This document shows positions 2-8,602 of a stretch of 11,081 nt of DNA, piece by piece. Positions within the stretch are counted from its first letter, which is position 1. Each line of letters opens with the position of its first letter. The translations under genes were made by a program, and so were the position numbers. The DNA is from Lachnospiraceae bacterium (GTDB lineage Bacteria > Bacillota > Clostridia > Lachnospirales > Lachnospiraceae), in assembly GCA_017476305.1 (NCBI GenBank), contig JAFVAA010000802.1, positions 1 to 11,081 of the forward strand. The letters run 5' to 3'. A model generated the notes under the pieces. The model worked only from the letters and a program-made list of their open reading frames with translations, was not told the DNA's origin and did no database searches.

Positions 2-1435
2 AAAATCCTAAAGGTCAGTGATGACGGAGATGTCAGCTTTATGCTTTATGGCTATATGAACTGCGGAGACTATGAAGGGCGGGTGGGTATCCTTTTATAC
101 GATTATAACCCAAAAGAAAATCAGATTTCAGAGAGAGTGTATATTCCTCTTTCCACGACCTATCAGCAGCTAAAGGAAGATATTGGTGATTACAGCTATT
201 TCAACAATAGGGATATCTTCTATTTTTCCTTTAATGACCGGGTATATGCTTACAATATTTCTTCCAAAAAATATGAGATCCTGACCGAGCACGCCTCAAA
301 GGACCACTTTTCCATGCTGCAAAAGGCAGGATGCTTCATCTGGTCAAATGCTGCAGAAAATTCTTCTGATGGCATTGCAGACAGTATTCAGATCTTAGAT
401 TTGGAGACTTCGAAATATATCAATGTAAAGGCACCAAAAAAAGAGGGCATCATTGTCCTCGGCACGATTGATTCAAACATTGTTTACGGCTTTGTGAAAA
501 AACAGGATGTCTTTGAAACCAGCACCGGTGAAATCGTCACACCTGCCTATAAACTATTTATCTCGGATTGTAAAGGAGAAATCCTCAGAGAGTACCATAA
601 CACAAAACGCTATGTGGTCGGTGCTGCTGTTGATGAAAATGTAATCCGTCTGGACCGGATGAAAAAGGTAGATGGCAGATTTGTTGAGACCAGCGGAGAT
701 ACCATTATTAATCAAAAGACCATAGAAACCAAATCTGTCAAGCTGACTACCCGTGTTACCCAGAAGTTTTTGACAGAATATTACCTTTCTCTCCCTGCCG
801 GATTTATTTTAAAGCAGACACCGGAGGTCTCCTCTACGAAACAGATGATGGTCACGGAAAATACCACGCTTCATCTTTCGGATGAGGAAATGCGGAATTC
901 TGTAAAATATTATGTCTATGCAAATGGGGGAATTACGAAATCAAGCACGAATATCGCGAAATCCATCCAGCTCGCGGATGAGCAGATGGGAACCGTCATG
1001 GACAGCGATGCACATATTATATGGGAACGTGGCGGAAAATTCCTAAGCAAGGAGCTTTCTGGGATTTCCTATCCAAACGACGGTTCTGGCAGTCTCAAAG
1101 CCTGCACACAGATGCTTTTACAGGCTGCGCAGATTACGACTACCACATCCGAATTAAAGGGAAAATCCACGCTTTCCATGCTGAAACGATATCTGGATTT
1201 CCCGGTCAATCTCACCGGCTGTACGGTAGATGAAATCCTCTACTTTGTCAGTGGTTCAAAGCCTGTCATTGCCATGACCGGAAATACCAGCGGCGTTTTG
1301 ATCATGGCATACACCACCACAGATGTGTCCTGGATGGATCCGAATACGATGCAGCGGCGAACCATGTCCATTGCTGCTGCAGAGGAATATTTCAAACAGT
1401 TCGATTATAAATTTATCAGTTATGTAACGAACTAA
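2..1435 (+). CDS. Large beta-strand-rich protein with degenerate C39-like C-terminal domain (5' partial)
   Basis: This frame is open from base 2 to a TAA at 1433-1435, giving 477 visible residues. The ATG at 41 has no ribosome site, so it is an internal Met and the true start lies left of the window. Visible residues about 1-260 form short hydrophobic strand/turn units (for example RVGILLYDYN, DRVYAYNISS, SIQILDLETSK) that suggest beta-propeller-like repeats. The last ~120 residues resemble the papain-fold C39-like family (Peptidase_C39_2). They show a Cys-led helix (KACTQMLLQAAQ, Cys at visible residue 368), then DEILYFVSGSKPVIAMTG, then GVLIMAY and WMDP. In active members a His precedes the GVLIMAY-like strand; here the residues are NTS, so catalysis is probably lost. 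No membrane segment or anchor is visible in this part. Location is probably cell surface, judged from the neighbours. The protein is unrecognised overall; the C39 resemblance is by eye. Confidence 0.85.
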   Translation, partial: KILKVSDDGDVSFMLYGYMNCGDYEGRVGILLYDYNPKENQISERVYIPLSTTYQQLKEDIGDYSYFNNRDIFYFSFNDRVYAYNISSKKYEILTEHASKDHFSMLQKAGCFIWSNAAENSSDGIADSIQILDLETSKYINVKAPKKEGIIVLGTIDSNIVYGFVKKQDVFETSTGEIVTPAYKLFISDCKGEILREYHNTKRYVVGAAVDENVIRLDRMKKVDGRFVETSGDTIINQKTIETKSVKLTTRVTQKFLTEYYLSLPAGFILKQTPEVSSTKQMMVTENTTLHLSDEEMRNSVKYYVYANGGITKSSTNIAKSIQLADEQMGTVMDSDAHIIWERGGKFLSKELSGISYPNDGSGSLKACTQMLLQAAQITTTTSELKGKSTLSMLKRYLDFPVNLTGCTVDEILYFVSGSKPVIAMTGNTSGVLIMAYTTTDVSWMDPNTMQRRTMSIAAAEEYFKQFDYKFISYVTN

Positions 1436-1439
1436 ATGC

Positions 1440-1451
1440 ACAGTTCCTAAG
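1440..1451 (+). repeat. Intergenic motif copy 1 (ACAGTTCCTAAG)
   Basis: This 12-base motif differs by one base from two others at 2674-2685 and 4653-4664. It also matches, in reverse complement, the left end of the palindrome at 4559. With its left flank (ATGC) it resembles the palindrome end ATGTACAGTTCCTTAG. It sits between a stop codon and a terminator stem, overlapping the first bases of that stem. Confidence 0.5.
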
Positions 1452-1496
1452 AATTTGCACGAAAAGTATTATCTAATATTTTTCGTGCAAATTCTT
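1449..1496 (+). terminator. Strong intrinsic terminator after the first gene
   Basis: Bases 1449-1470 pair with 1475-1496 around the four-base loop ATCT. This is a 22-bp stem with one G-T wobble (1466/1479), and the outer 17 bp are perfect. A T-rich tract follows (the TTCTTTTTC around 1492-1500). It starts 13 bases after the stop codon, so it ends the first transcript and separates that gene from the next block. Confidence 0.85.
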
Positions 1497-1618: not shown

Positions 1619-2668
1619 ATGAAACATAAAATTTTTAAACGTTCTATTTTACTACTGATAAGTTTTCTTTTAGGCATCGTATGTGTATTTCAAATGCATT
1701 TGACATCCGTCTTTTTTTCCAGTGCATTCACAGATACCGTTAGAAATGCATCTGCAAAGGAAAACCAGATTACGAAACCGCATGGACAGATTACAGAAGC
1801 CTATCCTGTTTCTATGGGAAAAGTTTATTCTGATTCGATTCCTGCCTATGGGGTTTCCTATTACAGACTTTCTGTATCTGATTCTGTGGAAATCCATGAT
1901 ATTTGTTTCTATTTAAAAGCAGCAGCTGGAAGCAGGCTTGTTCCTAAACTGCTTGGACCTGCAGGAAATCCACTCCGTTTTAAAAGGACCGGAAAAGCCG
2001 CGGAGCTTTTGCTGACCCTGAAATCATCGCAAATAAAAAATGCAGGCCGCCTTTTTTTAGAAATAAAGAACCAGGCCTCTGTGAATGCGAAGCTCTCCCT
2101 GTCCTGTTCTGTAAAAAAACAAACTCAGGAAGCCCTAAAACCAAAGGAAGATTCTAAAAAACCACAAAAAGACACGTCGAAAAATGACTCCTCAAAAAGA
2201 AGCCCGGAAAAAAATACTGCAAAAAGCGACACTTCTGGAAAAGATGCTGCCAAAAAAGAGAACCCGGAAAAAAATCCCTCAGAGAAAGAAGCTTCCGGAA
2301 CGCCCACCCCAAATGGTAAGCTGCCGGAAAAGGACAGCCGGACAGAGGAAACTCCCACCGGATCGGAATCGCCACAGCAGAAGCCGGAAAATGGAACACT
2401 TACCTTAAAGCCTCATTTTATCCGGATAGAACCAAAGCAAAAAAGAAAGCTCACTTTTTCTGTCCGGTATGAAAACTCTGGAAAAAAGCGTCTTTTTAAA
2501 GAAAGTGATTTTATCTGGCTTAGTACGAACGAGGAAACTGCAAGTGCTGAGGATGGGATTCTCCATGCGAAAAAAGAAGGCATTGCGATTCTGTATATAA
2601 AACATAAAACAGAGCCTTCTTTAAAAGATTCTGTCCTGGTAAGGGTGTATCCCGAAAAACAGCTTTAG
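1619..2668 (+). CDS. Secreted or membrane-tethered BIG2-domain protein with charged stalk
   Basis: This predicted 349-residue envelope protein starts at the ATG with a good Shine-Dalgarno; a TTG 24 codons upstream is less likely. Residues 1-8 are basic and 9-36 hydrophobic, giving an uncleaved N-terminal anchor or a signal peptide with possible cleavage near ASA (44-46). Residues about 50-165 form a beta-rich region that could be a jelly-roll or PPC-like sandwich, unassigned. Residues about 167-262 are a low-complexity Lys/Ser/Pro/Glu stalk. Residues about 264-345 match bacterial Ig-like group 2 (BIG2): RKLTFSVRYE, DFIWLSTNEETASAEDGILH, then AKKEGIAILYIKH and a final VLVRVY strand. There is no LPXTG or lipobox, so anchoring would be by the N-terminal helix. 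It lies 35 bases upstream of the kinase gene in the same direction, so co-transcription is likely. The molecular function is unknown; an adhesive or ligand role is inference. Confidence 0.85.
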   Translation: MKHKIFKRSILLLISFLLGIVCVFQMHLTSVFFSSAFTDTVRNASAKENQITKPHGQITEAYPVSMGKVYSDSIPAYGVSYYRLSVSDSVEIHDICFYLKAAAGSRLVPKLLGPAGNPLRFKRTGKAAELLLTLKSSQIKNAGRLFLEIKNQASVNAKLSLSCSVKKQTQEALKPKEDSKKPQKDTSKNDSSKRSPEKNTAKSDTSGKDAAKKENPEKNPSEKEASGTPTPNGKLPEKDSRTEETPTGSESPQQKPENGTLTLKPHFIRIEPKQKRKLTFSVRYENSGKKRLFKESDFIWLSTNEETASAEDGILHAKKEGIAILYIKHKTEPSLKDSVLVRVYPEKQL

Positions 2669-2703: not shown

Positions 2704-4497
2704 TTGAAAAACGAACTACATCTCATGCTTCCTGAAGAAATAGAAAGGGATTTTTCTTTAGAGGAAATACTTTTGGTAAAAAAAACCGCTATTTTATGCA
2801 GCTTGAAAAAGAAAGTTCCTTTTTCTGAAGCTGCCTGGATTTTAAAAATCATTCCAAAAAGGGAATATAACAAAGTTGTCTATGAAAAGCTTTCCCTTTT
2901 ATCAAAGGGCGGTATCCTTACTGCTGTACAGGAATATCACACAAAGCATTTTATTTACTTTATTTTTCCAAAGCTGCAGTCCCTGTCCTATTTAGTAAAA
3001 GCTGGAAAAATGGACTTCCATAATATAAAAGGACTGATGACGGACATTGGAGCGACCCTTCTTTCCTTACATAAAGAATCTGTCTTTCATATGGATATTG
3101 CACCTGGTAACATTTACCAAAATGACGATGGCCACTTTGTTTTAGGAGATTTTTCTTCTGCCCGCATCGTTACAGATCAGAAGAACTGTAGATTTTTTCC
3201 TGTTTATGGCCGTCCGGCTACTGGTTCTACAAAGGGCTTTTATCCTGAAAATATTTCTCCGGATATGTCCCCGGCAAATTATGATCTTTATGGTTTTTTT
3301 ATGATCCTGTTTCTTTTACTGAATCACGGGGATTCCCCTTTTTGGAAAAAGCAGACCGGTCTAAGGAAAGAAGATACCTTTGAACAGAATGAACATACTC
3401 CTTCCACGAAGTTTGATTTCCTAAAAAGCGAAGAATCAAAAGGACCGGAGGGAAAAAAACTAATAGAAAAAATAAACCGCTTTTTAAGAAATACTCTGCT
3501 GGAATGCAATACAGAGTTTTTACCTCCTCCTGTCTTTGAAAGGCGTTTTTCAGAGCTAATGGAGATTTTTAGTGAGGTAAAAGAGCAAAAAATACTGGAT
3601 TCCTTTCAATCAGAAATTTCTGATTATGAAAATAGTTTTTTTTGTTCTTTTACGGAGCCGGAAGAAAGGAAGTTTCCTGCTTTCCCTTTTTTTACAACAC
3701 AAGCAAATCATTTTTCTTTTGAGAAAAAAATAAAATATCATTCCATTCCAAAATCCTTATTTTCAAAAGAAATCTTAAATAAGTCCGCATTATATGGACT
3801 GCTGATGGTTTGTGGATTCCTATTTTTATTTGCCTGCTATCACAATATATCAAATACCGGTAAGCAGTCTAAATCAAGAACGCAGATAGAAACAAAGCAT
3901 GCAGGAACCATCCCTTCTCCTTCTATAGAGAAACATCCGCCATCCGAGGCTGACGAACTGGAGACTTCCGGCTTCTCTAATACCATACTGCCAGAAAAAA
4001 GCGAGCCCCCGGGCTCCCCCGGCACCAGTCCACAGGAACCTGATAATACAGAATTGCCTGTAAAGACTTCACTGGACCTCGCCGGTAAAAGCTTACAGAA
4101 TACTTCGTTTCTTTCAGAGACCTGGAAACCCGGTGACATTACCATTATTTTTGCACAAAACAATAAATTTTCCGGTGTTCGTTCCTTTCTTTCGTTTACA
4201 AACGTAAGGGAATTATATCTGAGCCAGAATCCCATTACTTCGATTCAGGGCATTCAGAAGTTAAAGCATTTGGAGGTTCTGGATTTATCCGGAAACAGGC
4301 TGGAGGAGATCTCCCCACTATGCTCTTTAGCAAATCTAAGGATTATAGATTTATGCGGGCAGACACATATAAAAGATATTCGTATGCTAAAGAATCTGAA
4401 AACTTTAGAATATTTGATCCTCACAAACTCGAATGTAAAGGAAGGGGAAATTTCTGCCCTGAAAAAACAGATGCCCGCTTGCAGTATTCTTTATTAA
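2704..4497 (+). CDS. Receptor-like Ser/Thr protein kinase with C-terminal leucine-rich repeats
   Basis: This 597-residue protein starts at TTG, chosen for its Shine-Dalgarno. Residues about 20-290 look like a divergent Hanks-type kinase. WILKII offers the ATP-binding Lys (K48). HMDIAPGNIY (129-138) is the catalytic loop, with D131 and N136 kept and the usual HRD Arg replaced by Met. GDFSSAR (148-154) holds the metal-binding Asp as DFS instead of DFG, PEN (181-183) may stand for APE, and NYDLYGFFMIL (192-202) fits subdomain IX. No clear glycine-rich loop is seen. Residues 362-379 form one membrane helix, followed by a Pro/Ser/Glu-rich linker (about 385-453). Residues about 455-597 are leucine-rich repeats of internalin type (VRELYLSQNPITSIQGIQKL, LEVLDLSGNRLEEISPL). 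The topology would put the kinase inside and the repeats outside, as in PASTA kinases but with a different sensor. Activity is likely but unproven; the substrate is unknown. Confidence 0.85.
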   Translation: MKNELHLMLPEEIERDFSLEEILLVKKTAILCSLKKKVPFSEAAWILKIIPKREYNKVVYEKLSLLSKGGILTAVQEYHTKHFIYFIFPKLQSLSYLVKAGKMDFHNIKGLMTDIGATLLSLHKESVFHMDIAPGNIYQNDDGHFVLGDFSSARIVTDQKNCRFFPVYGRPATGSTKGFYPENISPDMSPANYDLYGFFMILFLLLNHGDSPFWKKQTGLRKEDTFEQNEHTPSTKFDFLKSEESKGPEGKKLIEKINRFLRNTLLECNTEFLPPPVFERRFSELMEIFSEVKEQKILDSFQSEISDYENSFFCSFTEPEERKFPAFPFFTTQANHFSFEKKIKYHSIPKSLFSKEILNKSALYGLLMVCGFLFLFACYHNISNTGKQSKSRTQIETKHAGTIPSPSIEKHPPSEADELETSGFSNTILPEKSEPPGSPGTSPQEPDNTELPVKTSLDLAGKSLQNTSFLSETWKPGDITIIFAQNNKFSGVRSFLSFTNVRELYLSQNPITSIQGIQKLKHLEVLDLSGNRLEEISPLCSLANLRIIDLCGQTHIKDIRMLKNLKTLEYLILTNSNVKEGEISALKKQMPACSILY

Positions 4498-4693: not shown

Positions 4694-7099
4694 ATGATCA
4701 TACCAGTATTTCAAAAAATTTCCCCCCGTCCCCCCTTTATCGGAGTTCTCTCCTGCAGCACTTTTGTATTTTTTTCTATATTCTTTATTTTGGTGAGTGG
4801 CTTCGCACATACTGCCTGTGCGGAAACGAACGCTCCTTCCTTTGACAGGACCGTTTCAACCCTTGCTGTAGGAAAGCATGCCACTGTTTCGATAAAAAAT
4901 CTCCCTGGCCAAAGCAGAGTTTCATTTTCCTCATCCAATCCAAAAATGGCATCCGTGAGCCAGCGCACGGATAAGATATCTGCAAAGCTTTCCGCAAAAA
5001 AATGCGGAAACGTTACGATCTCTGCACAAATTTATCGGAAAAATGGTACGAAAATAAGGACTCTGAAAATGAAGATCCGCATTTTGCCAAAAGACTATAT
5101 TGAAAATGCCCGCTTTTCCCTTAAACAGACTATTAATTCCTACAGCTTTACCCTTCGGCTGAAGGCCAGCCGTATCATTTTAAAAAAGGAAATTAGAAAA
5201 AGCAAACTGACGCTCACACCGGAAGGAAAGAAAGCACCCAGGCTTTCTGCCGACTTTTCAAAGCTTTCTCCAGACGGAAAAGAAATTGTATATCTTTTAG
5301 ATTCCGCAAGCAGAAAAAAGCTTTGCCCGCACGATTGCTCCATGGACGGAGCTTATATGATTTTTTCAAATTCTTTTTCCCAAAAGATAAGAGCACACTA
5401 CAAAGAGCGGTTAGATACAGAAAATATTTCCGGTTTTGTATTGGATGCCTGCGGTACCCCTCTGTCCGGTGCCTTTGTTTCCTATCAGACCACAGAAGGT
5501 GCGGCTGCCTCCTATACGGATAAAACCGGTCACTATGAGGTAAAGAAAAAAGGGGCTCCTATCTCCCTAACCGTTAAAAAGAAAGGCTATCAGACAGAAA
5601 CCCTGTATTCTTTGACTCTGTCAAAAAAGGGGACGATTTGTGAAAATATCATACTCAAATCAAAAACGACTGCAGACGCTTCCTTAGATCTCCTCGTGAA
5701 AACCGAAGACGGAACACCCGTGCCAAATGCACAGGTTCTTCTCCTTCCGAAAGGGAAGATTTCATCAAAGAAGCTTTCTTCCATAACACAGGACCATTTT
5801 TTACCAGAGGATACGCTGATTTCTGAAAAAACAGGAACAGATGGAACACTTCTGCTCGCAAGCTCCAAAAACCAAAAATCAAAGGCATATCCATATACCC
5901 GATTGACATCGGCTGCCCCGGCTTCCCTTTCTCTCCTCTCCTCCTACACCTCTGCAGCCACAAGGTCTGCCACCCTCCCCGTCACATATGCGGAGAACGA
6001 GGAATACACCCTGTATGTATATAAAAATACACCAAAAAATTCTCCCTCCTATGAATCCTGTAAACTGACCTTTTCGCCCTCTTCCTTTTACACAAATCAT
6101 CTTCATTTTGAAATCCTGCTTAAAAAATGCGATACGCTGGATACCTCCATGCTTTCTATAAGTCTCGAATCCCTGAAAATTGCGAATGAATTGAAAGCAC
6201 TTTCCTTTTCTCTCTTTGAACCCGGTCAAAAAAAGGCTGTATATGAAAACTCCTTTACGATCGCAAATGAAAGAAATACGAATCCTGAAATGACTTTGGG
6301 ACATCATGTTATCAAAGAAAATACACAGCTATTTTCCATTTCCCGTATTCCGGTCTCTTTATCAAGTGGTATTTATTTTCTAAGGATTTCCGGTCTCGAT
6401 GAAAATGGAGAGTCCCTTTATTCTTCAGCTGTTACCGAAATCCAGGTAAAAGATAACTGCATCTCTCCTGTTACGATCAAACTGTTTCAAAAGAGCTATT
6501 CCCGGCTTTTCGCCTACTATTCCGGAGATAAGCTGCCGGAATTAAAAATTTCCTTTGATCTTTACCAAAAAGCCGGAGAAAACTATTTCTATTTCGATAC
6601 AGTCTCCTCCTCTGCTTTTAAAGAAAATCTGCCCGATTTATACACAGCAGACCTTTTTCTCTCCTGCCTGCTGCCACAGGAAACCTATCTTTTCTTACCT
6701 GGAGAGGCACTTTTTCGTCCCGCTTCCTTTTTGATACTTGATATTTCCTCTGAAGATCTGCATCCGACAGAAAATGCTGCCCTTACTGCACCACCATTTT
6801 CAAAATGTGCCTGCACCTACACAAAATATGGCCAGATAGAAATGCCGCCGGATTTTTCTGAAGATTCTGTCCATATATTTACAGGAACCGACATCCATCT
6901 TACCAGGGAACAGATCCGCACAGAGCCTTCCTATCCAAATTCCGTCATAGCCCTGTATAAAAAAGACGGTACCCTTATCAGCACGACCCTCTCGCCAAAG
7001 CTTGATAGAAATACCGTATTGAAAGAAAGCTCCGATACCATCATAGATATCTATACGAATCATGAGCTTTTACTGACGAACCAGAGCTCCTATCAGTAA
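4694..7099 (+). CDS. Large secreted protein with BIG2-like and carboxypeptidase-regulatory-like domains
   Basis: This 801-residue protein starts at an ATG 8 bases after AGGAG (4681-4685). Residues 1-43 are a long signal peptide with hydrophobic core about 20-37 and probable cleavage after AHTACA (43). Residues about 51-131 resemble a BIG2 Ig-like domain (VGKHATVSIKNL, VSFSSSNPKMASVSQ, final MKIRIL). Residues about 245-321 match the carboxypeptidase-regulatory-like or Cna-B-like fold: ISGFVLDACGTPLSGAFVSY, then YTDKTGHYEVKKKG and ISLTVKKKGYQTE. A second copy starts at about 329 (DLLVKTEDGTPVPNAQVLLL). The C-terminal ~340 residues are beta-rich and unrecognised. There is no LPXTG, SLH or C-terminal membrane segment, so it is probably released or non-covalently held. 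It is third in the surface block, 196 bases after the kinase gene, and ends at a terminator. A structural or ligand role is inference. Confidence 0.85.
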   Translation: MIIPVFQKISPRPPFIGVLSCSTFVFFSIFFILVSGFAHTACAETNAPSFDRTVSTLAVGKHATVSIKNLPGQSRVSFSSSNPKMASVSQRTDKISAKLSAKKCGNVTISAQIYRKNGTKIRTLKMKIRILPKDYIENARFSLKQTINSYSFTLRLKASRIILKKEIRKSKLTLTPEGKKAPRLSADFSKLSPDGKEIVYLLDSASRKKLCPHDCSMDGAYMIFSNSFSQKIRAHYKERLDTENISGFVLDACGTPLSGAFVSYQTTEGAAASYTDKTGHYEVKKKGAPISLTVKKKGYQTETLYSLTLSKKGTICENIILKSKTTADASLDLLVKTEDGTPVPNAQVLLLPKGKISSKKLSSITQDHFLPEDTLISEKTGTDGTLLLASSKNQKSKAYPYTRLTSAAPASLSLLSSYTSAATRSATLPVTYAENEEYTLYVYKNTPKNSPSYESCKLTFSPSSFYTNHLHFEILLKKCDTLDTSMLSISLESLKIANELKALSFSLFEPGQKKAVYENSFTIANERNTNPEMTLGHHVIKENTQLFSISRIPVSLSSGIYFLRISGLDENGESLYSSAVTEIQVKDNCISPVTIKLFQKSYSRLFAYYSGDKLPELKISFDLYQKAGENYFYFDTVSSSAFKENLPDLYTADLFLSCLLPQETYLFLPGEALFRPASFLILDISSEDLHPTENAALTAPPFSKCACTYTKYGQIEMPPDFSEDSVHIFTGTDIHLTREQIRTEPSYPNSVIALYKKDGTLISTTLSPKLDRNTVLKESSDTIIDIYTNHELLLTNQSSYQ

Positions 7100-7110
7100 T
7101 CCGATTTTTT

Positions 7111-7149
7111 TATACTCATTAACGGAATTACACTCCGTTAATGAGTATA
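7111..7149. terminator. Bidirectional terminator between convergent genes
   Basis: TATACTCATTAACGGA (7111-7126) and its exact complement (7134-7149) form a 16-bp stem with a 7-base loop. T6 lies on the left (7105-7110) and an A-run on the right, so each strand gives a stem followed by a U-tract. It ends the + strand surface block and the - strand cdd-pdp unit. The pdp stop codon (7138-7140) lies inside the right arm. Confidence 0.9.
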
Positions 7150-7956
7150 AAAAACCCCTTTTTTCGTCACCTTTGCAATGATTTCCTTCTGAACCAAAGG
7201 CTTTTCCTCCGAATACTCATAACCGGCCTTTAAGTATTCACACGCCTCTTCCGCCTTTTTCTCATCCGATGCATAAAGCATGGCCAAAACCTCCCCCTTC
7301 TTTACATAAGCACCGGTCTTTTTATAAAAACGGATTCCCGCCTTTGAGTCAATCTCACTTTCCTTCGTCGCCCTCCCCGCACCAAGAATCACAGAGGTTT
7401 TTCCGCAGAGTTCGGTGTCCATATGCGAAATATATCCGTCCTGCTCTGCGACAAACTCTTTTTTATACGCAGCCTCTGTAAACCGCTCCGGTTCATAGAT
7501 AAACCGCTCCTCTCCCCCCTGTTCCTTTACCATCCGGGCGAATTTTTCCAGTGCTGTTTTCTCGTGGATAGCTTTCTTTATCAGCTCCCTGCATTCGCTC
7601 TCTGAACCAATTCCGGAAAGCACCAGCATTTCCGTCGCAAACACCTCACAGATTTCTTTGAAATCAGAAGGACCTCCGCCATTTAGGGTTTCAATCGCCT
7701 CTAAAATCTCGATATCATTTCCCACAGCCTCCCCGAGAGGCACATCCATATTTGACAGAATCGCCACGGTTTCCCTGCCCGCACCCTCACCGATTGCCAC
7801 CATCTTTTCTGCCAGCGTGACCGCATCCTCTGCCTTTTTCATAAAGGCACCACTTCCTACCGTCACATCCAGTACAATTTTATCACTTCCCGCTGCCAGC
7901 TTCTTGCTCATAATAGAAGCCGCAATCAGAGGAATACTGTCCACCGTCGCCGTCAC
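7138..7956 (-). CDS. Pdp C-terminal fragment (base-binding and C-terminal domains)
   Basis: These 272 residues from a possible GTG at 7956 carry the base-binding Ser and Lys (ASIMSKK) and [19 protein letters not shown]. They also include the C-terminal PYNP_C-like domain ([13 protein letters not shown], then [15 protein letters not shown]). The GTG overlaps the upstream TGA and is the Val of the normal RDVTATVD, with no ribosome site of its own, so independent translation is doubtful. The stop lies in the terminator stem. Confidence 0.6.
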
Positions 7957-8462
7957 ATCACGAAGTGCATAGATTTTTTATCTGCCGGTGCTATGTTTGC
8001 CGACTGCCCCATCACAGCCACGCCAAGCCGGTTCACGATCTCGAAGAACTTCTCCTCTTTCATCGCCGTCATAAGTCCCGGAATCGACTCCAGCTTATCA
8101 ATCGTGCCACCGGTAAAGCCAAGACCTCTCCCGCTCATCTTTGCCACCCTGCCACCGCAGGCAGCTACTAAAGGGGCTACTACTAAGGTCGTTTTATCCC
8201 CTACTCCTCCGGTGCTGTTCTTATCCACCTTGATCCCGTCAATCGCCGACAGATCTACCATGTCCCCCGATTTCGCCATGCAGTCCGTCATATATACCAG
8301 CTCATCATCCGTCATCCCCTGATAGTAGACCGCCATCAGCCATGCAGACATCTGATAATCCGGGATTTCATCTGCCACATACCCATTGATGACAAATGCA
8401 ATCTCCTCCTTCGACATTTCCTTCCCATATTTCTTTTTGTCAATCATGTCGTACATTCGCAT
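7953..8462 (-). CDS. Pdp N-terminal fragment (phosphate-binding part)
   Basis: This open frame covers residues 1-169 of the broken phosphorylase: the N-terminal helical domain and the beginning of the alpha/beta phosphate-binding domain. The last six residues (SMHFVM) are frameshift product. The family's KHSTGGVGD reads KNSTGGVGD here (residues 81-89), replacing a conserved His. A TTG at 8468 is in frame but has weaker ribosome-site spacing than the ATG at 8462. If translated alone, this part lacks the base-binding residues and the C-terminal domain. Confidence 0.6.
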
Positions 8463-8602
8463 AAGCAAACCTCCCTTCTCCTGATTCTTCCTTCAAATTC
8501 CACAGCTCCAAAAAACATTTCTTTCCACAGCATCTGCCAATACCCTGATACCAAATATGTTCTTTTTTTGATTTTGTAGCGTTACGAATCACATCACTTC
8601 TA

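Follow-up and report, generated by a model that had tools for sequence, protein, structure and literature searches.

A membrane kinase-like protein with leucine-rich repeats and an atypical active site, encoded beside a surface-type protein in a genus of Lachnospiraceae

RESULTS

A kinase fold, a membrane helix, and leucine-rich repeats lie in one chain

We analyzed an 11,081-nucleotide stretch of a Lachnospiraceae bacterium genome (contig JAFVAA010000802.1; hereafter, the window), which carries the genes g1 to g4, and we focused on g3 (Table 1). An earlier note on this sequence had read g3 as a Hanks-type kinase-like protein with one membrane helix and a C-terminal leucine-rich-repeat (LRR) domain, and this observation is confirmed. 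Separate tools found the kinase fold and the Pfam Pkinase match, and the helix and the LRR domain were likewise each found by separate tools, all in a single chain with a receptor-like order. Profile searches placed Pkinase at residues 66-262 and LRR_4 and LRR_8 in the LRR region, which is of the SDS22/internalin-like kind, and the predicted structure contains a kinase fold; the refuting outcome named in the note, no profile match or no fold, did not appear. The key kinase positions are K48, E61, H129-M-D131, N136, D149-F-S151, and D194. The gene starts at a TTG codon with GGAG upstream. The first reading of g3 as an LRR receptor-like membrane kinase is supported by these results.

TABLE 1 Features of the g1 to g4 region of the window (pLDDT, predicted local distance difference test; ORF, open reading frame)
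Feature	Positions	Strand	Basis
g1, C-terminal 477 aa only; family-wide core protein, C39-peptidase-like end	2..1435	+	Family genome search; Pfam in relatives
Terminator-like stem after g1, 20 pairs	1449..1496	+	Stem scan
g2, surface-type protein: N-terminal helix, collagen-binding/pre-peptidase-C-like sandwich, disordered linker, Ig-like Big_2-type domain	1619..2668	+	Model; Foldseek
g3, kinase-membrane helix-LRR protein, 597 aa	2704..4497	+	ORF; Pfam; structure model
g3 kinase-fold domain, residues ~11-300	2734..3603	+	Pfam Pkinase 66-262; VIA-align model range ~8-319
g3 membrane helix, residues ~357-380	3772..3843	+	Hydropathy scans, starts 357-361; model helix 355-395
g3 P/S/T/N-rich disordered linker, residues ~381-455	3844..4068	+	46% P/S/T/N; pLDDT <50 at 387-452
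g3 LRR domain, residues 456-597	4069..4494	+	Pfam LRR_4, LRR_8; model block pLDDT 74-95
g4, N-terminal hydrophobic segment, CarboxypepD_reg, Big_2 match below cut-off	4694..7099	+	Pfam; locus listing
Terminator-like stem after g4, 20 pairs	7107..7153	+	Stem scan

A fast-diverging family retains the catalytic residues

We aligned 31 g3 proteins, taken from 27 distinct genome loci and from the four entries P0004-P0007 (labels with G, L, and P denote genomes, loci, and proteins), and counts out of 31 or 30 below refer to this alignment. The g3 of L155 lacks its N-terminal part, and one duplicate contig, that of the RUG14105 record, whose g3 is identical to that of G412, was left out before counting. 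Pfam Pkinase is matched by 29/30 members. Median pairwise identity is 27% (range, 18 to 77%), and across columns 17-300 only L122, D131, N136, and D149 are invariant. The position of the β3 lysine, K48, is Lys in 28/30 proteins, H129 is His in 30/31, and D194 is Asp in 28/31.

The g3 of the window has the β3 Lys, the catalytic-loop Asp and Asn, and the DFG Asp of a Hanks-type kinase; it lacks the glycine-rich loop, the HRD Arg, and the DFG Gly. The departures that the earlier note had pointed out, a Met in place of the HRD Arg, DFS in place of DFG, and the lack of a clear glycine-rich loop, hold in this protein, and the HRD Arg, the DFG Gly, and the glycine loop are lost across the family as well. 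A 2025 review (PMC12599244) identifies pseudokinases from alterations to the β3 Lys, HRD, and DFG motifs, the three that it treats as catalytic, and ATP binding is still predicted there for some families without the αC Glu (DYD). None of the defining losses (β3 Lys, HRD Asp, or DFG Asp) is found in the window's g3. The alignment suggests that selection has kept the phosphate-transfer residues of this family and released the classic ATP-loop and regulatory features. Given that the catalytic residues, including the β3 Lys and the metal-binding Asp, are what a fast-diverging family retained, we lean toward an atypical kinase where the earlier note had left the choice between that and a pseudokinase, and we consider g3 likely to be catalytically active.

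Separately, T317 (window positions 3652-3654) is kept in 30/31 juxtamembrane segments, within a region that is otherwise 17% identical; it is a possible phosphorylation site, offered as a lead in a stretch where the alignment is loose.

g3 is retained across the genus

A profile search found a g3 orthologue in 25/28 genomes of the window's genus; the G410 copy runs off the end of its contig, and in several genomes the match falls into two pieces within one open frame. The three genomes without g3 are G402 (60% complete), G422 (65%), and G414 (85%), and these absences are uninformative because the genomes are incomplete and g1 is also unmatched (G402 and G422) or cut by a contig end (G414) there. 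Outside the genus, g3 occurs in G248 and G286. A draw of 150 genomes, searched with a 30-sequence profile at an E value of 1e-25, gave 11 matches, of which only the window's own is full length and ten are partial; G248 and G286 are not among them, and we assume, unverified, that they were not drawn. In most genomes, the search that revealed G248 and G286 scored only 3 candidates and the 150-genome search only 9, so that absences are soft. At the protein level, a first search returned the window's g3 and five close full-length relatives, and a second, with a nine-row alignment, listed no new family member as judged by reading (at most 8000 candidates were scored in each); P0167 from the second search has both a kinase and LRRs, but at 10% query coverage.

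A surface-type protein is encoded directly upstream of g3

In the g2 model (mean pLDDT, 79.4), an N-terminal helix precedes a beta sandwich and an Ig-like beta domain, which are separated by a disordered linker. Foldseek likened the beta sandwich to the collagen-binding domains of clostridial collagenases (3jqw; E value, 2.1e-6; template modeling score by target, 0.83) and also to a pre-peptidase C-terminal domain (5sv5), and it placed the Ig-like domain close to Big_2 structures (7quz). A Pfam scan of g2 gave zero matches over the cut-off.

A g2 homologue lies directly upstream of g3 in 27/27 rows, which correspond to 26/26 distinct evaluable loci: 24 in the genus plus those of G248 and G286 outside it, with one copy (G416) cut by a contig end. 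No non-adjacent ORF matched g2 in the last iteration round of the homology search. The upstream gene thus offers a candidate partner at a fixed position in these loci, which makes a ligand pairing testable, and g2 is our best candidate for a ligand of the g3 LRR, possibly together with g4.

The LRR domain is the most conserved region, and its predicted location is outside the cell

Median identity within g3 is 23% in the N-lobe, 26% in the C-lobe, 17% in the juxtamembrane segment, 14% in the linker, and 38% in the LRR domain, making the last the most conserved region of the protein. Its C-terminal end is conserved as well, with C593 and I595 invariant and P591 present in 29/31 proteins. High LRR conservation is expected if the LRR binds a conserved partner, and a conserved LRR joined to a variable kinase would fit a shared ligand. 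A binding site at E503 and Y505 was considered and dropped, as ELYL is a common LRR consensus.

Positive charge is higher on the kinase side of the helix in 23/31 proteins (mean K+R, 4.06 versus 2.52 on the LRR side), and a hydropathy scan of the window's g3 marked no N-terminal hydrophobic segment. The charge bias is tied in five of the proteins and reversed in three. Together these observations suggest a cytoplasmic kinase and an extracellular LRR. The earlier note had likewise placed the LRR outside, and the refuting outcome that it named, a topology with the LRR in the cytoplasm, did not appear; the predicted placement draws on charge bias and context only.

HRD-type relatives share the architecture of g3

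Proteins with an HRD-type kinase, a helix, and LRRs in the same order as g3 occur as P0015 (G166), in which DFG is also seen, and at L158 (G099), L160 (G414), and L161 (G415). When 17 kinase ORFs, a chosen set picked by motif from loci in hand and including some cut by contig ends (L006 and L008), were ranked with the g3 kinase profile, these took the top four places (101.8, 88.2, 80.5, and 78.8 bits; the next scored 75.9). L159, L162, and L163 are also kinase-membrane-LRR proteins with lower kinase-profile scores (64.5, 44.4, and 63.2 bits), and the best LRR-profile match is L159, outside the top four. The ranking suggests that g3 descended from an HRD-type kinase-membrane-LRR receptor.

Some of these relatives keep company with type VII-like genes. 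L158 encodes an FtsK/SpoIIIE ATPase whose FHA match falls just below the cut-off, and L161 has two WXG100 proteins over the cut-off and an FHA-trypsin protein; the type VII genes of these two loci are confirmed by Pfam, a 1543-aa neighbor in L050 was judged by eye, and none was recognized by eye on the short L160 contig. PP2C and Big_2/laminin-G proteins stand beside the kinases in L160 and L161, the company that would be expected of a phospho-signaling surface sensor. P0022, the neighbor of P0015, has four Big_2 stretches, and Big_2 proteins lie near three of the four HRD-type relatives (L050, L160, and L161). It is possible that the HRD-type genes are a phospho-signaling branch of type VII loci. 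The kinship of g3 to type VII-linked kinases is suggestive only, because the ranked set is small and chosen, the margin is 78.8 versus 75.9 bits, three LRR kinases score lower, and L159 is the best LRR match. The gene g3 is not bound to a type VII setting: in 18/25 g3 genomes of the genus, several genomes being incomplete, there is no WXG100 match at an E value of 0.001.

Two further proteins, P0020 and P0021, join a kinase and LRRs to a zinc ribbon (seen by eye) without a predicted helix, and the zinc-ribbon kinase-LRR genes of L049 and L051 adjoin PP2C-like, MoxR-like ATPase, and DUF58/transglutaminase-like genes (named by eye). More than one arrangement of kinase and LRR has therefore arisen in this bacterial family.

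Other neighbors in the window

A g4 homologue lies directly downstream of g3 in 19/24 judgeable genus loci; it is missing beside g3 in G192, G415, G398, G399, and G408, it is split in G418, and the contig of G421 ends at that point. The g2-g3-g4 stretch is flanked by the two 20-pair terminator-like stems, and because these follow g1 and g4, the three genes may form one transcription unit. In all, 13 terminator-like sites were listed against 5.1 expected, three of them variants of the single post-g1 stem, and g4 itself contains a weaker site of six pairs.

Upstream, g1 precedes g2 directly in 22/23 judgeable genus loci, the exception being G398, where g1 is on another contig; the separately fetched G192 and G248 loci also hold g1 and g3 together. 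We rejected g1 as the key partner of g3 since it is a core gene, matched in 386/397 family genomes, nearly always once per genome. It is ~840 aa long, and those sources that give it a name call it hypothetical. A further 40 g1 loci, picked from the head of the g1 list and not at random, come from genomes beyond the genus; 34 of them extend at least 3 kb past g1, and none of the 40 contains an ORF that matches our kinase or LRR profiles. One of these genomes, G286, carries g3 on a different contig. C39_2 was matched below the cut-off in one g1 relative (P0016) and above it in another (P0017). At the presumed nucleophile column of this C39-like end, chosen by eye, 146 of 183 aligned proteins have Ser and 27 have Thr, not Cys, and the domain may be non-catalytic.

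On the minus strand at positions 7138-8468, two ORFs in different frames correspond to a single ORF of ~440 aa in relatives, which we take to be a pyrimidine-nucleoside phosphorylase; the split is either a frameshift or an assembly error. Upstream of g1 and on the strand opposite to it, 15/25 genus loci have an ORF of ~115-160 aa (in one case, 200 aa) that looks conserved on inspection by eye, for example, at L136 340-726 (-), L140 2896-3261 (-), and L143 12521-12895 (+); the one example scanned had no Pfam match over the cut-off.

DISCUSSION

We favor, with moderate confidence, a reading of g3 as a single-pass receptor-like kinase with an atypical Hanks fold that is probably active and whose extracellular LRR binds a g2-type surface ligand. 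The kinase would lie in the cytoplasm, joined through one membrane helix and a flexible linker to the LRR outside, which would bind an envelope or surface ligand, g2 being the best candidate and g4 possibly contributing. Binding could then dimerize or reorient the kinase domains, which would phosphorylate themselves and a cytoplasmic target. More tentatively, and with greater doubt than we attach to activity, the genus-wide LRR kinases might have arisen from HRD-type kinase-membrane-LRR ancestors of the sort present today in type VII-like loci. They would have stayed catalytic despite losing the glycine loop, the DFG Gly, and, in most members, the αC Glu, to become the signaling half of a self-contained g2-g3-g4 unit for surface sensing.

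Several observations weigh against this account. The glycine loop is missing, with zero Gly in the segment in 27/30 proteins and one Gly in three; the αC Glu is present in just 7/30, the window's g3 among them, with Asp in two more. The DFG Gly occurs in 0/31 (Ser in 29/31, one Pro, and one Asn), as does the HRD Arg, whose position is Leu, Met, Gly, Lys, Ala, or Phe. The β3 Lys is gone in 2/30 relatives, G248 has DFP, and G286 has EAD in place of HxD. The activation segment is modeled with low confidence (pLDDT <50 at 159-169) and is poorly conserved. The positive-inside count fails in 8/31 proteins, with five ties and three reversals, and LRR structure by itself could slow sequence change. 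We arrived at the g2 homology through iterative searches of ORFs that adjoin g3, a procedure that favors adjacent matches, and linkage by itself does not show binding. Promoter-like sites in the window are not above chance (8 versus 11.9 expected), and the PP2C_2 matches of the window's own genome sit on other contigs.

The motif losses are what one might see if g3 were instead a pseudokinase receptor, a ligand-gated scaffold that binds nucleotide or partners without phosphate transfer. VIA-align puts the pseudokinase CASK at the top, level with active kinases; two proteins without β3 Lys and the further eroded copies of G248 and G286 point the same way, and the 2025 review tabulates a Leptospira pseudokinase, CP1, that likewise has DFS (PMC12599244). 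However, the window's g3 retains the three key residues of that review's motif definition, and the catalytic Asp, the Asn, and the metal Asp are kept in 31/31 proteins, and the β3 Lys in 28/30, at 27% median identity. We regard a pseudokinase as unlikely, if the most serious of the alternatives. Alternatively, g3 could be a phosphotransferase acting on a lipid, sugar, or small molecule that reads envelope state via its LRRs. The K, HxD, N, and D set that it keeps is common to the wider kinase fold, its activation and P+1 segments are variable, and the Kdo kinase family is weakly matched by 4/30 members (best E value, 1.3e-4). Against this, Pkinase is matched far more widely, D194 is the αF Asp typical of protein kinases, and the top scores in our small comparison went to HRD-type protein kinases that share the g3 architecture, which leaves a non-protein substrate quite improbable.

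Two other proposals concern where g3 sits and with what it works. In an inverted topology, the LRR would be a cytoplasmic scaffold and the kinase would face outward, as the proteins with absent (5/31) or reversed (3/31) charge bias might allow. The bias of the remaining 23/31 agrees with an internal kinase, however, and the unmarked N terminus, the P/S/T/N-rich linker on the LRR side, and the N-terminal hydrophobic segments and surface-type domains of g2 and g4 also speak against inversion, which we consider very improbable. Least probable of all, by a little, is a type VII secretion component resembling EssB/YukC, a membrane protein whose pseudokinase domain lies in the cytoplasm (PMC12599244), even though two of the kinases that score highest with the g3 profile sit in type VII-like loci. 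Besides the WXG100 result, no type VII gene was recognized by eye, in an unscanned inspection, among the ORFs beside g3, no EssB/YukC family appears among the g3 Pfam matches to an E value of 1, and the three motifs are all reported to be degraded in EssB, unlike in g3; LRRs are unmentioned for EssB/YukC in the accessible portion of PMC12599244.

The atypical receptor-like kinase that we favor would be a variant on a familiar theme. Plant LRR receptor-like kinases have an extracellular LRR, one helix, and a cytoplasmic kinase. The likeness that the earlier note saw to such eukaryotic receptors is one of parts only, in reversed chain order, and does not imply common descent of the whole design. 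To our knowledge, most ligands of bacterial membrane kinases are still not known. The PASTA kinases (PrkC/PknB/Stk1) are, like g3, membrane kinases with an outer sensor, in Gram-positive bacteria (PMC1262709). They differ from g3 in that its sensor is an LRR and its kinase motifs are atypical; g3 scores 23.2 against an NCBIfam PASTA-kinase cut-off of 450, and no PASTA family is among its Pfam matches to an E value of 1. The LRR domain is similar in kind to those of internalins, although its Internalin_A score of 35.2 bits falls short of the NCBIfam cut-off of 1600. Kinase and LRR are also combined in one bacterial protein in a Pseudomonas aeruginosa STYK, named without topology in the accessible part of PMC1262709, and in STPKLRR of Vibrio splendidus (PMC10237653, 2023), which is described as a secreted effector with its LRR (35-168) ahead of its kinase (203-403), not as a membrane receptor. 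A receptor of the g3 kind is not mentioned in the accessible portions of a cyanobacterial kinase paper (PMC7517822) and a polymorphic-toxin paper (PMC3482391), and the papers listed in our literature searches, judged by title, abstract opening, and selected passages in a collection with few subscription papers, include no membrane kinase of bacteria whose outer sensor is an LRR, which does not prove absence. Bacterial receptor-like kinases with an outer sensor are already known, and the g3 architecture is a variant of them. A 2005 survey stated that membrane kinases of bacteria had no known ligands (PMC1262709). A role in anti-phage defense was rejected: PADLOC matches (PD-T4-6, mad6, and others; 22 families) are weak, at best 38.7 bits, and fall in the kinase region, which we take as generic kinase similarity.

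If the more tentative reading is correct, g3 would be a bacterial counterpart, in reversed order, to the LRR receptor kinases of plants, and the adjacent gene would encode its ligand or co-receptor. The family is also a natural experiment on which kinase features are dispensable, as two Asp residues and an Asn persist in every member and the β3 Lys in nearly all. The interest of g3 lies in its pairing with a surface-type protein, in its unusual yet conserved active site, and in the chance that it offers of finding a ligand.
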